From: Candidatus Woesearchaeota archaeon
GTDB lineage: Archaea; Nanobdellota; Nanobdellia; Woesearchaeales; GW2011-AR9
DNA length: 47,841 nucleotides
Reading direction: 5' to 3'
Assembly (NCBI GenBank): GCA_016185725.1
Contig: JACPNA010000057.1
Location: 1 to 47,841 of the forward strand
Under the pieces are notes generated by a model that did not search any database, was not told where the DNA came from, and was given only the letters and a program-made list of their open reading frames with translations. The position numbers and the translations under genes are program-made. Below, one piece after another: positions 6,210 to 13,008 of the stretch (the stretch's first letter is position 1; every line of letters begins with the position of its first letter).

Positions 6210-7166
6210 ATGTTTTCCCCTGACAAAAAAGCTCATGAACTGCAAAATTTAAAACCTAACGACTGGCTAAACTCAAAACCATTAACCTTAGAGCAATCGA
6301 AGGGTAAAGTTATTCTCTTAGATTTCTGGACTTATTCCTGCATTAATTGCCTCAGAACTTTGCCTTCCTTAACTCATCTATGGAACACCTACAAAGACAA
6401 CAGTTTCATCATCATCAGCATCCATACCCCTGAATTTGCCTTTGAACAAGAATTTTCCAACCTCAAAAAATTCGTGGAAAAAAATAATCTCACCTATCCT
6501 ATCGTTAACGACCCTGACCGTTTCAACTGGGAAAATTATGGCAATAAATATTGGCCTCGTTCTACTTTAATCAATCCGCAAGGGAAAATTATTCTTGAAC
6601 ACGTCGGCGAGTCTGGCTATGACGAAATTGAAGCTAAACTTCTCCAAGAACTTAAGCTTTTAAGAGAAATAAAATCAATTAAACCAACTCTAAAAGAAGA
6701 ATCGCATTACTACTCGCCGGAAATTTCTCCCGAAACCTATGCCGGCAAAAAACGCAACCCCAACGGTCTCGGCTCACATCAAGTTTGCACTAAGCAGGGC
6801 TGTGAAGAATATGTAGATTCACCTCGCCATCATTTACATACCATTTACTTGCAAGGTTCTTGGAAACAACATCAAGAGTACTTGGAATGTCTCCATCAAG
6901 AAAATTCCTATTTTGAATATCCTTATTATGCTCAAGAAGTTAACCTCGTTTTAGAAGGCAAAGGCCTTATCGAAATTCTCATTAACAATCAACCATTAAC
7001 CCCAGAAAATGCCGGTAAGAATATAATTTTCAAAAACAGTCGTTCTTTTCTCAACATAACCACTCCTGCCCTGTATAATCTTGTTCACACCGCCGAAAAT
7101 CATAAAGCTGAGATAAAAATCATTCCTTTTACCGGACTAAGAATTTATGCTTTAACTTTTGGGTAG
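6210..7166 (+). CDS. DipZ-like thioredoxin-fold protein with C-terminal domain
   Basis: The 318-residue protein has a TlpA/thioredoxin fold in residues about 10-150 with the redox motif WTYSCINCLRTLP (Cys44 and Cys47), which is characteristic of the DipZ family. The C-terminal half (about 190-318) resembles the carbohydrate-binding-like domain at the end of DipZ. The CcdA-like membrane domain found in full DipZ is missing, and there is no signal peptide, so this form is probably cytoplasmic. It likely acts as a thiol-disulfide reductase or peroxide-handling protein. The ATG is preceded by AAAGAGG, and a TATA-like TTTATATAT lies around 6168-6176. Confidence 0.8.
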   Translation: MFSPDKKAHELQNLKPNDWLNSKPLTLEQSKGKVILLDFWTYSCINCLRTLPSLTHLWNTYKDNSFIIISIHTPEFAFEQEFSNLKKFVEKNNLTYPIVNDPDRFNWENYGNKYWPRSTLINPQGKIILEHVGESGYDEIEAKLLQELKLLREIKSIKPTLKEESHYYSPEISPETYAGKKRNPNGLGSHQVCTKQGCEEYVDSPRHHLHTIYLQGSWKQHQEYLECLHQENSYFEYPYYAQEVNLVLEGKGLIEILINNQPLTPENAGKNIIFKNSRSFLNITTPALYNLVHTAENHKAEIKIIPFTGLRIYALTFG

Positions 7167-9593: not shown

Positions 9594-9857
9594 CTACTTT
9601 TTCTTAGCTTTCTTGTCTTCCCTGTCTTTATTGACAATTTTCTCAATATCCTGCTGATTAAAACCGACAATCACTTTTCCATCAATATCTATAACCGGGA
9701 CGCCCATTTGTCCCGAGATATTGACCATTTCTTTGGCAGCTTTATCATCTTCCGTTACATCCAGCTCTGTAAACTTAATCCTTTTCGATTTAAAGTACTC
9801 TTTCGCTTTCTTACACCACGGACAAGTTGGCGTGGAATATATCTTGACTATAACCAT
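9594..9857 (-). CDS. Glutaredoxin-like redox protein
   Basis: This 87-residue thioredoxin-fold protein has the N-terminal redox motif STPTCPWCKKAK (Cys12 and Cys15) and the cis-proline segment MGVPVIDIDG, followed by a GFNQQDIEKIV helix and a lysine-rich tail. It resembles glutaredoxin/NrdH-type proteins, which reduce disulfides in target enzymes. The ATG at 9857 is preceded by a strong site, TTAGGAGGTCATAATT. A 14-codon Cys-containing reading frame lies 49 bases upstream on the same strand. The electron donor is unclear; a thioredoxin-reductase-like gene lies 2.2 kb away on the other strand. Confidence 0.9.
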   Translation of the reverse strand: MVIVKIYSTPTCPWCKKAKEYFKSKRIKFTELDVTEDDKAAKEMVNISGQMGVPVIDIDGKVIVGFNQQDIEKIVNKDREDKKAKKK

Positions 9858-10066: not shown

Positions 10067-10990
10067 ATGGTAGCCAAATTATCCAATTTTAAAAAGATAA
10101 CTAACCTTAACCAGCTAAAAATTCTTGCCAACGAAATTCGTCAAGATATCATTCTTTCATTAGCCGAAGCCAAGTCTGGTCACTCTGCCGGACCATTGGG
10201 CATGGCTGACATTTTCACCGCTTTATATTTTAACGTATTAAAACACAATCCCAAAAATCCCCAATGGAAAGAGAGGGATTACCTTATCCTATCTAACGGC
10301 CACATTTGTCCAGTACTTTACGCTACTATCTCTAAAGCTGGTTATTTTCCTAGAAAAGAATTGTTCACCTTGCGAAAATTAAATACCCGATTGCAGGGTC
10401 ATCCCCATCGCGAATCTCTACCCGGCTTAGAAACCACTTCCGGCCCTCTTGGTTCCGGCTTATCCCAGGCTGCCGGCATGGCGTACGCCTTAAAATTAGA
10501 CAAAAAACCCAACAAAGTTTTTTGTATAACCAGCGATGGTGAACATGATGAAGGTAACACTTGGGAAGCGGTCTTGTTCGCCGCCAAATATAAATTAGAT
10601 AACTTGATTGTTATCATGGACAGAAATTATATTCAGATTGACGGTAACACTGAGACCATTATGCCTCTCAATCCCTTAGATAAAAAATATCACACATTCA
10701 ACTGGAACACTAAAGTCATTCCCGGTAATGATATGTCCAAAATCGTTGCTGCTCTAAACCAAGCTAAAAATAACCACTCCAAACCCTTAATGATCATTGC
10801 TAACACCACCCCTGGCAAAGGCGTTTCTTTCATGGAAAATGATTACACCTGGCATGGCAAACCGCCCACTAAAGATCAAGCGGAAATAGCTCTTGCCGAA
10901 TTATGCCAAACAGAAAGTAGGCTAAAAAATAAAACCTGTAGCCATTGCCGTTATCAACACGAACAATGCGTCTGCATTGACCCTCAATAA
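10067..10990 (+). CDS. Transketolase, N-terminal (thiamine-diphosphate-binding) subunit
   Basis: Transketolase moves two-carbon units between sugar phosphates. Archaea commonly encode it as two proteins; this 307-residue subunit carries the pyrophosphate/Mg-binding half, including EAKSGHSAGPLGMADI near the start, GPLGSGLSQAAGMA, the TPP motif ITSDGEHDEGNTWEA and the Asn-containing IVIMDRNYIQIDG. An odd C-terminal tail, CSHCRYQHEQCVC, supplies a CxxC and a CxC that could bind zinc; I do not know it as a family feature. The partner subunit starts 2 bases downstream, so the two are co-translated. A TATA-like CCTTTATTAA lies about 35-40 bases before the ATG. Confidence 0.93.
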   Translation: MVAKLSNFKKITNLNQLKILANEIRQDIILSLAEAKSGHSAGPLGMADIFTALYFNVLKHNPKNPQWKERDYLILSNGHICPVLYATISKAGYFPRKELFTLRKLNTRLQGHPHRESLPGLETTSGPLGSGLSQAAGMAYALKLDKKPNKVFCITSDGEHDEGNTWEAVLFAAKYKLDNLIVIMDRNYIQIDGNTETIMPLNPLDKKYHTFNWNTKVIPGNDMSKIVAALNQAKNNHSKPLMIIANTTPGKGVSFMENDYTWHGKPPTKDQAEIALAELCQTESRLKNKTCSHCRYQHEQCVCIDPQ

Positions 10991-10991
10991 A

Positions 10992-11984
10992 ATGTCAATA
11001 AATTTAACCCAGCTTAAAGGATTGAACAAGAATTTACACTTACATTTTCCTGACGAAAAAATTCCCACCCGTAACGGTTATGGTGAATCTATTGTCGAGT
11101 TAGGAAAAAACAACAAAAACATCATGGTGCTTTGCGCGGATTTGACTGAATCAACACGTGTAGAACAATTCCAGAAAAAATTTCCTGAGCGTTTCATTGA
11201 GATTGGCGTTGCCGAACAAAACCTCGTAACCGTCGCTTCTGGTCTTGCGCATATGGGAAAAATACCCTTCGCTTCCTCCTATGCATGCTTCTGCCCTGGT
11301 CGTTGTTGGGAACAGATTCGCACCACCATTTGTTACAACAATAATAACGTCAAAATTATTGGCGCTCATGCTGGCATTTCCGTTGGTCCTGACGGTGCTA
11401 CGCATCAGATGTTGGAAGATATTGCCTTAATGCGTTCCTTACCCAACATGATCGTTATTGTACCTGCAGATTACGAACAGACAAAAAAAGCTACTCAGGC
11501 AATCGCAAAATACATTGGCCCTTCTTATTTACGCTTCGCTCGCGAAAAAACATCACAATTAACTTCCGCTAAAACACCCTTCCAAATTGGTAAAGCCCAA
11601 ATTTTGAAAGACGGCCGTGATCTTGCCTTAATCGCCGCCGGTCCGGTATTACACGAAACATTACAAGCCGCTTTACTATTGCAACAACATAATATCAATG
11701 CTATGGTGATAAATTGTCATACCATAAAACCATTAGACAAAGAAACAGTATTACACGCCGCTAAAAAATGTAAATTTATTGTAACCATCGAAGAAGCGCA
11801 GATTATTGGCGGTCTTGGCGGCGCAATAACTGAATATTTATCCGAAGCCTATCCTGCCAAAATAAAACGTATTGGTGTTAATGACCATTACGGTGAATCT
11901 GGCAGTCCCGAAGAATTAATGCACAAATTTGGGTTTAGTTCGCAGCATATTTACCAAGAAGCTAAAAAATTACTTAGGAGGTGA
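10992..11984 (+). CDS. Transketolase, C-terminal subunit
   Basis: This 330-residue protein is the pyrimidine-binding and C-terminal half of transketolase. It has the pattern of the family: TRNGYGESIVELG near the start, VLCADLTEST, the catalytic-Glu segment FIEIGVAEQNLVTVASG, and AHAGISVGPDGATHQMLEDIA. The last third is the transketolase C domain. I chose the ATG at 10992, just after the stop of the N-terminal subunit, over a TTG at 10977 inside it. The tight spacing fits production of equal amounts of both subunits for non-oxidative pentose phosphate metabolism. Confidence 0.94.
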   Translation: MSINLTQLKGLNKNLHLHFPDEKIPTRNGYGESIVELGKNNKNIMVLCADLTESTRVEQFQKKFPERFIEIGVAEQNLVTVASGLAHMGKIPFASSYACFCPGRCWEQIRTTICYNNNNVKIIGAHAGISVGPDGATHQMLEDIALMRSLPNMIVIVPADYEQTKKATQAIAKYIGPSYLRFAREKTSQLTSAKTPFQIGKAQILKDGRDLALIAAGPVLHETLQAALLLQQHNINAMVINCHTIKPLDKETVLHAAKKCKFIVTIEEAQIIGGLGGAITEYLSEAYPAKIKRIGVNDHYGESGSPEELMHKFGFSSQHIYQEAKKLLRR

Positions 11985-11989
11985 ATTCC

Positions 11990-12079
11990 ATGCGTGAGTG
12001 CTCTAGCTGTGGCGAAGGAATGCGTAAAAACGAAATGTGTTCCTCTTGCTCTAAATGCAAGATTTGCTGTGATTGTTAA
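11990..12079 (+). CDS. 29-residue Cys-rich peptide (putative metal-binding)
   Basis: This 29-codon frame has a strong ribosome site (TTAGGAGGTGAATTCC) and its TAA overlaps the ATG of the next gene (TAATG), so it is placed as a real, translationally coupled gene. It contains 8 cysteines: Cys4, 7, 17, 20, 23, 26, 27 and 29, including CSSC, CSKC, CKIC and the ending CCDC. Such spacing suits zinc or copper binding in a metallothionein-like way, or a small Fe-S or redox role. It sits between transketolase and thioredoxin reductase. No family was recognised; function is inferred only from cysteine spacing. Confidence 0.7.
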   Translation: MRECSSCGEGMRKNEMCSSCSKCKICCDC

Positions 12080-13008
12080 TGAAACCAACAAAAAAGTCTA
12101 ATTTATACGATACAATAATTATTGGTTCAGGTCTTGCTGGTTGTACTGCTGCCATTTATGCCGCTCGTAAACGCATGAATTTTTTATTGTTAACTGACAC
12201 GTTTGGCGGTCAATTCTTAGAATCGGGTAACATCTATAACTATCCCGGCATCAACAAAATATCTGGTTTTGATTTTTCTGCCTTAATGGAAAAACAATTA
12301 GAATATAATACTATCAAACCATTGATCGGTGTACCTGTAACTAAATTACAGAAACACGGTAAGAATTTTCAAGTCATTACAGACAAAAAAAAATTTACCG
12401 CACGTTCCCTAATCATTACTACTGGCGCTCGTGCCCGGGAATTAACCATTCCTGGCGAACAAAAATATAAAAATAAAGGTTTGACCTATTGTGCAATTTG
12501 TGATGGACCTTTATTCAAAAATAAAGATGTAACTGTTATTGGCGGTGGCAATTCTGCCTTAGAAGCCGCAGATTTTTTATTGAACATAGCCAAAAGTATC
12601 ACTATCCTAAATTTAAACCCTGTCTTTAATGCCCATGAATATTTACTAGAACAAATATCCGGTCATAAAAAAGTCAAAATAATCAATAATGCCAAAACTT
12701 TAGAGATTTTAGGTAACACTTTCGTATCTGGGATAAAATATAAACAAAAAAATCAAGTTAAAATTCTTAAAACTCAAGGCATTTTTGTTGAAATCGGCAG
12801 AATACCTAACACTAATTTCTTAAAAGGTTTCTTAAAATTAGACCAACATCAACATATCATCATTGATCAAACCACCCAAACTTCTGTTCCTGGCGTATTT
12901 GCTGCCGGTGATTGTTCATCAGTTCATGAATATCAATATATTATCGCTGCCGGTCAAGGTTGTACGGCCTTAATCAAAGCCGCTCGCTATCTTGCTCAAA
13001 AGAAGTAA
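12079..13008 (+). CDS. trxB: Thioredoxin reductase-like flavoprotein
   Basis: The 309-residue protein has an FAD-binding Rossmann motif TIIIGSGLAGCTAAIYAARK (13-31), the redox pair CAIC (Cys138 and Cys141) followed by DGPLF, a second nucleotide-binding motif VIGGGNSALEAA (153-164), and a C-terminal FAD motif VPGVFAAGDC. These define the low-molecular-weight TrxB type. The segment after the second motif reads ITILNLNPVFNAHEYL, lacking the HRRxxxR arginines that bind the NADPH 2'-phosphate, so NADH or another donor is likely. Start chosen at the ATG overlapping the stop of the Cys-rich peptide. It probably reduces the thioredoxin-fold proteins encoded nearby. Confidence 0.9.
   Translation: MKPTKKSNLYDTIIIGSGLAGCTAAIYAARKRMNFLLLTDTFGGQFLESGNIYNYPGINKISGFDFSALMEKQLEYNTIKPLIGVPVTKLQKHGKNFQVITDKKKFTARSLIITTGARARELTIPGEQKYKNKGLTYCAICDGPLFKNKDVTVIGGGNSALEAADFLLNIAKSITILNLNPVFNAHEYLLEQISGHKKVKIINNAKTLEILGNTFVSGIKYKQKNQVKILKTQGIFVEIGRIPNTNFLKGFLKLDQHQHIIIDQTTQTSVPGVFAAGDCSSVHEYQYIIAAGQGCTALIKAARYLAQKK

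Follow-up and report, generated by a model that had tools for sequence, protein, structure and literature searches.

Among the closest described systems are the C(P)XCG micro-proteins of haloarchaea, such as HVO_0758 and HVO_2753 of Haloferax volcanii. According to excerpts of two papers (PMC10716476; PMC11241148), these proteins are smaller than 70 aa and carry paired CPxCG-type knuckles in one domain, and several of them bind zinc. The same excerpts state that, of 14 predicted C(P)XCG proteins of haloarchaea, only nine bound zinc (PMC11241148), that several CPxCG proteins take up no zinc at all or a single ion although predictions called for two (PMC11241148; PMC10716476), that AlphaFold2 cannot decide zinc binding (PMC11241148), and that HVO_0758 is reported from haloarchaea only (PMC10716476). 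The window that we analysed, a stretch of 47,841 nucleotides from a Candidatus Woesearchaeota archaeon, encodes a peptide that is likewise shorter than 70 aa and has two or more CxxC/CPxCG knuckles, namely C4-C7, with G8 behind it, and C17-C20. It differs from the haloarchaeal proteins in its 29 residues, its eight cysteines and its CxxCCxC end, in its occurrence in Woesearchaeota and in having transketolase as its set partner. By analogy, the peptide may work like the haloarchaeal zinc-finger micro-proteins, a likeness that does not imply membership by descent.

The first half of the peptide, CxxC-x7-9-CxxC, has the arrangement of the zinc-ribbon domains PF13248 (Zn_ribbon_3) and PF24460 (DUF7575). 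One of 11 members of the peptide family matches Zn_ribbon_3 (E 8.4e-4) and two of 11 match DUF7575 (best E 5.9e-4); resemblance of the first half to Nop10, bL32 and archaeal Zn-ribbon proteins is found at weak E values. Unlike these domains, the peptide has an extra CxxCCxC at its C terminus, and the window copy is without a profile match. It matches no family of Pfam or NCBIfam (no Pfam match at E<=1), and for these two collections the statement of an earlier note on this DNA, that there is no matching family, holds. In the AlphaFold model (mean pLDDT 67, moderate) a single hairpin is formed in the first half, with blocks at 75 and 72; the last third has a pLDDT of 55, and the second half is without a defined fold. 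We consider it likely that the peptide binds metal, a prediction tempered by the nine of 14 haloarchaeal proteins above.

Metallothioneins share with the peptide a very high proportion of cysteines and a tiny size. In contrast to them, the peptide has a nearly fixed cysteine spacing, a zinc-ribbon-like first half and a linkage to an enzyme; no metallothionein profile of Pfam or NCBIfam matched it. In plants and cyanobacteria, the small cysteine-containing protein CP12 ties enzymes of carbon flux to the thiol redox state. It binds GAPDH and PRK and its cysteines differ from those of the peptide; the likeness between the two is one of analogy only and is not drawn from sequence features.

A short cysteine-rich frame in a transketolase operon

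The gene for the 29-aa Cys8 microprotein (MRECSSCGEGMRKNEMCSSCSKCKICCDC) occupies positions 11990..12079 of the plus strand, with its ATG at 11990 and its TAA at 12077-12079, and was recognised by reading of the ORF, by its homologues and by codon-position bias. Its cysteines are at positions 4, 7, 17, 20, 23, 26, 27 and 29. They include three non-overlapping CxxC pairs, and C17-C20-C23-C26 form an unbroken CxxCxxCxxC run. A Shine-Dalgarno-like site read in the sequence, AGGAGGTGA (11976..11984, plus strand), includes the stop codon of tkC (11982-11984) and is separated from the ATG by 5 nt; GGTGA-type sites also lie 5' of the frames of relatives (G001, G003, G030, G060 and G061, the window's own genome being G000 in all comparisons). 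Initiation at an in-frame GTG (11981) would lengthen the peptide to 32 residues; this GTG sits within the Shine-Dalgarno-like site, however, which makes the ATG the more probable start. At the other end, one base is common to the TAA and to the ATG of trxB (12079-12081). The frame had been described in the earlier note with the same 29 residues, eight cysteine positions, three CxxC pairs, ribosome-binding site and stop/start overlap, all of which were confirmed when the sequence was read again. The pattern C..C-x7-9-C..C..C..CC.C has a single match in the six frames of the whole 47.8-kb window, and the whole 1.03-Mb genome (97% complete) contains one copy of the microprotein. A promoter and terminator scan gave no signal above shuffles.

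Two genes for a split transketolase precede the frame. The first, tkN (10067..10990, plus strand), encodes the thiamine-diphosphate domain (PF00456), and the second, tkC (10977..11984, plus strand), the pyrimidine-binding and C-terminal domains (PF02779 and PF02780; the listed start is a TTG, with an ATG at 10992). Behind the frame lies a trxB-like gene for an FAD disulfide reductase with a CAIC motif (12079..13008, plus strand; PF07992, TIGR01292), whose TIGR01292 score of 298.8 is below the cut-off of 343.45. A glutaredoxin-like protein with a CPWC motif (9594..9857, minus strand; PF00462) is encoded divergently from tkN, and the order in the window is glutaredoxin-like gene, tkN, tkC, peptide, trxB.

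Conservation of the frame

BLAST searches of 60 relatives gave matches in 12 at E<=1, and homologues were also found in other genera; the matches L010, L011 and L014, which are partial or in long frames, were excluded. A profile built from 11 members (A1) was searched against 352 genomes of the order and matched 19 at E<=1e-4, of which 16 are among the 49 genomes of the window's family. At E<=0.05, matches were obtained in 118 of the 352 genomes, but most of these are confined to the initial two thirds of the profile, a zinc-ribbon-like part, lie in larger frames and were not counted. Further exclusions were L059, L068 and L075, again as partial or long-frame matches, and L060, L061, L063-L067, L069 and L070, on the match table alone. 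In an alignment of 20 rows, C4, C7, C17, C20, C23, C26 and C27 are present throughout and C29 in no fewer than 90% of the rows, and in nearly all copies the gap between C7 and C17 (nine or seven residues) is the only spacing that varies. Outside the cysteines, G8, E3 and little else are conserved, and the aligned sequences are often acidic. A variant with seven cysteines is found in G060 and G061.

Four within-genus pairs (G000/G001, G060/G061, G003/G070 and G030/G067) were compared base by base. They show 73 differences, distributed as 18, 15 and 40 over the first, second and third codon positions; 24 of the 49 changed codons are synonymous, and of the 31 Cys codons in the first-named sequences none is lost. 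Because of its homology, the third-position bias of these changes and the repeated gene context, the frame is, by these comparative measures, a conserved coding micro-gene. Disruption in relatives, which had been raised as an argument against the frame, was found behind tkC in G026; otherwise the eight cysteines are kept almost throughout. In that genome (L202 566-655) only the first CxxCG part is present before the frame diverges, as a remnant or an assembly join. Upstream of the peptide in G060 and G061 (L210, L211) stands a TATA-like TTTTATAAA, as if the gene had its own promoter.

Linkage to the split transketolase

The subtype of the peptide with nine residues between C7 and C17 is located directly behind tkC, or behind tkC and one other small Cys8 gene (A2, see below), in nine of 11 genomes. 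The former arrangement is found in G000, G001, G016 and G022, the latter in G003, G014, G020 (two copies), G030 and G070. As exceptions, the copy of G067 lies 175 nt from a contig start, and in G017 no tkC was found; the G017 copy adjoins a VKOR gene, with glutaredoxin and MsrB genes nearby. For the copies with the spacing of seven (G007, G012, G018, G034 and G036), tkC is not a neighbour. In G311, which belongs to another family, a fused transketolase of 597 aa is followed after 28 bp by a 29-aa relative (MRCRSCDEEVDEVCPRCEKCRDCCECQGE), then by a second Cys8 frame of 45 aa (L074 1633-1770) and a 6-phosphogluconolactonase-type gene.

Any small Cys-rich frame (the peptide, the A2 protein described below or another) within 500 bp behind tkC was found at 15 of the 36 tkC loci of the family, but behind none of 88 other long ORFs in 20 regions that had been chosen for tkC alone. 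The 36 genomes are 37 minus G005, whose transketolase match is weak. An earlier control of 273 long ORFs was discarded because its regions had been picked for the peptide and its transketolase filter was leaky; of its 14 matches, four were behind transketolase and most others were family members. At the other 21 of the 36 loci there is no small Cys-rich frame within 500 bp (for G033, just 130 bp of sequence are available). The peptide in turn occurs away from tkC, or in genomes without tkC, in G007, G012, G017, G018, G034 and G036. Peptide and tkC can thus each occur alone, and neither needs the other. Since 21 tkC loci are without a Cys frame and trxB follows tkC without the peptide at five loci (see below), the peptide is dispensable in evolution. 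On a TkC tree of 39 rows, in which G023, G026 and G311 are absent, the peptide is found in two TkC clades and A2 in one of these two, a distribution that needs losses or several gains.

Judged from gene order, the main genetic partner of the peptide is the split transketolase, with trxB in second place. The literature searched contained no account of a Cys-rich protein linked to transketolase. DPANN transketolases were acquired from bacteria, according to an excerpt of PMC8407392. In G035 (L240), tkC is followed after 9 bp by an unrelated-looking frame of 57 aa with seven cysteines.

A second Cys8 protein and a cysteine tail of TkN

In part of the window's family, tkC is followed by another Cys8 protein, termed A2, which has 57-109 aa and the end FxCxxCGYxxxKLAxLSHCPLCxICxxCxxxVRxCxCxEGE; in the family f26 it is shorter (47-71 aa). 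Profile searches for A2 gave 19 distinct genomes at E<=1e-3, of which 13 have it beside tkC. G008, G091, G107, G289, G428 and G444 were dropped, their matches being other proteins or not beside tkC. The 13 loci behind tkC come from three families: eight from the window's family, four from f26 (G087, G094, G095 and G099) and one from G401, which is of the same class but outside the order. Examples are L197 3648-3914 and L203 2778-2951, as well as L250, L251, L252, L253 and L266. Across 12 aligned members there is no change in the cysteines, in Tyr8, in Pro20 or in the terminal EGE. A2 was not found in G000, and the window peptide does not match the A2 pattern CxxC-x12-CPxCxxCxxC-x6-CxCxEGE, lacking the x6 spacer and the EGE. 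Peptide and A2 have the cysteine order CxxC...CxxCxxCxxC...CxC in common; their profile comparison is weak (hhalign probability 29%), so that a common descent stays hypothetical.

TkN itself ends in a cysteine tail in the window, KTCSHCRYQHEQCVCIDPQ (CxxC-x6-CxC; 10931..10987, plus strand), which was identified by sequence reading and tkN comparison. Among the tkN genes seen, such a tail (CxxC-x6-CxC; CxxCxxxHxxCxC) is present in G000, G001 and G011 only; the pattern used to collect tkN missed 10 of 39 loci, including G001, the tail of which was read separately. Its spacing is that of the last four cysteines of A2, in the C-terminal half. As a reading of these sequences, this suggests that the last four cysteines can stand alone as one site.

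trxB and other redox neighbours

Only in the window genome and in G346 is the frame immediately followed by a trxB-like gene; in G346 it is a doubled version of 64 aa, which overlaps with a gene for a PfkB kinase and precedes the TrxB-like gene. Five relatives (G009, G011, G012, G027 and G068) have trxB directly behind tkC without the frame, an outcome that the earlier note had named as refuting and that here speaks against the trxB-specific reading. The earlier note had seen in the peptide a possible helper for the reductase and looked to short Cys frames upstream of trxB in relatives. Outside the window, the peptide directly precedes a trxB-like gene in G346 alone, in doubled form, and the conserved neighbour is the upstream tkC; with trxB kept without the frame in five relatives, we reject a trxB-specific helper. 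The metal or redox role suggested there is still the best inference, with the C half of transketolase as partner in place of the reductase.

Further redox genes adjoin some of the copies. In G348, copy 1 comes after glutaredoxin and TrxB-like genes and before the beta chain of FTR, and copy 2 is flanked by a molybdopterin oxidoreductase gene on one side and rhodanese-MsrB-MsrA genes on the other. A lipoamide-dehydrogenase-like gene is the convergent neighbour in G007, G030, G060, G061 and G067 (checked by Pfam in G030 alone). The G347 copy is adjoined by ArsR-like, NifS-like and NifU-like genes, named by eye and without a profile, and no redox neighbour was recognised for the copies of G012, G018, G034, G036 and G106. 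The redox link outside transketolase is thus an impression from named cases, with TrxB, glutaredoxin, VKOR, FTR and Msr as neighbours. G348 has, in addition, a Cys-rich frame of 69 aa (L217 2762-2968), which is flanked by glutaredoxin and TrxB-like genes and has no Pfam match at E<=1e-5.

Within the window genome, no thioredoxin above the Pfam cut-off was found (97% completeness). The sole sub-threshold match to the thioredoxin profile lies at window positions 6300-6419, in a TlpA-like gene (6210-7166) with a thioredoxin-like C-terminal domain. Two glutaredoxin-like proteins are encoded in the genome. A search of the genome_contigs collection with the TrxB protein as query gave no match.

Proposed function and alternative explanations

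Our preferred explanation, which as a whole we hold tentatively and with slightly more doubt than confidence, is a zinc-thiolate microprotein that is accessory to the split transketolase operon and the thiols of which are kept by neighbouring reductases. The coding status and the linkage to tkC are observed in the genomes compared; we infer zinc as the metal, two sites, contact with transketolase and redox sensitivity. C4, C7, C17 and C20 would form a short zinc-ribbon-like site and C23, C26, C27 and C29 a second four-Cys site. The peptide would be made together with TkN and TkC, would most likely work beside the split transketolase and could, as a small accessory factor, stabilise the transketolase complex or sense the metal or thiol state. 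TrxB, glutaredoxin and the lipoamide-dehydrogenase-like enzyme may keep its thiols reduced. In short, the peptide probably binds zinc and helps to tie a sugar enzyme to the thiol-redox system. The 29-residue genes form a conserved family, likely overlooked by routine annotation, for which a specific partner can now be named. Should the peptide bind TkN/TkC, a core sugar enzyme of archaea whose genomes are very small would have an accessory subunit linked to zinc or redox; the larger A2 behind tkC in three families gives another and simpler way to approach this. A bolder version, which we regard as speculative and rather unlikely, treats the peptide, A2 and the TkN cysteine tail as an interchangeable third part of the split transketolase. 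This would be a detachable zinc-thiolate switch between pentose-phosphate flux and the thiol/metal state, in principle a counterpart of CP12, supplied as a separate subunit of 29 aa, in a larger form with eight cysteines or as a fusion to TkN.

Alternatively, the peptide could be a mini-metallothionein, a soluble store or buffer of zinc or copper merely riding in the transketolase operon. The window copy is 28% cysteine and has no His, doubled or tripled versions exist (G346, G347 and G243), and the genes seen by eye beside the G347 copy (ArsR-like, NifS-like and NifU-like) would suit such a role. Metallothioneins tolerate changing cysteine spacing, whereas the spacing in nearly all copies of the peptide is constant apart from the C7-C17 gap; moreover, a store leaves the linkage to tkC in nine of 11 genomes and the cysteine tail of TkN unaccounted for. 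We consider this reading unlikely. A thiol electron carrier, or a substrate of TrxB or glutaredoxin replacing thioredoxin, is likewise unlikely. It would agree with a genome in which only the sub-threshold TlpA-like match represents thioredoxin and with TrxB, glutaredoxin, VKOR, the FTR beta chain and MsrA/MsrB as neighbours of various copies, but the two glutaredoxin-like proteins could serve TrxB, most copies do not adjoin trxB, and we know of no carrier precedent for CxxCCxC without a thioredoxin fold.

The likeness of the N-terminal half to ribosomal and RNA-binding zinc ribbons would also fit a zinc ribbon that binds nucleic acid and regulates the operon, and small archaeal zinc-finger regulators such as Brz are a precedent, as described in an excerpt of PMC2253796. 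With 29 residues, few conserved positions besides the cysteines, an often acidic sequence and no conserved basic patch, the peptide makes this quite improbable. A cysteine-sensing leader peptide (attenuator) for trxB, which eight Cys codons and a stop overlapping the trxB start might suggest, is very improbable and was rejected: a co-directional gene that could be regulated in this way lies downstream in the window only, and in ten genomes (G001, G003, G014, G017, G020, G022, G030, G060, G061 and G067) the next gene is convergent, on the opposite strand, so that there is nothing downstream to attenuate, and residues other than cysteine (G8 and E3) are conserved. G016 was omitted from this list, as the ORF next to it on the opposite strand may be spurious. 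Finally, a chance open frame, for which only the short length speaks, has practically no probability and was rejected, as it is contradicted by homologues, codon-position bias and recurring gene context.

Other cysteine-rich frames

The DNA-pattern scan of the genome_contigs collection gave at least 118 stretches, and nearly all of the 80 loci listed are low-complexity Cys repeats; among these 80 loci are L149, a contig of G001, and L141, a Woesearchaeota member (G348). In other families of the order, doubled or tripled Cys8 units were seen at L215 5079-5267, L216 4554-4748 and L220 6982-7236. Among the listed loci of the scan, the four acidobacterial loci L085, L090, L106 and L107 (CxICG...CTKDAC...CxRCSDCCxCE-like) and L109 encode a different Cys-rich domain with a similar CxxCxxCC.C ending.
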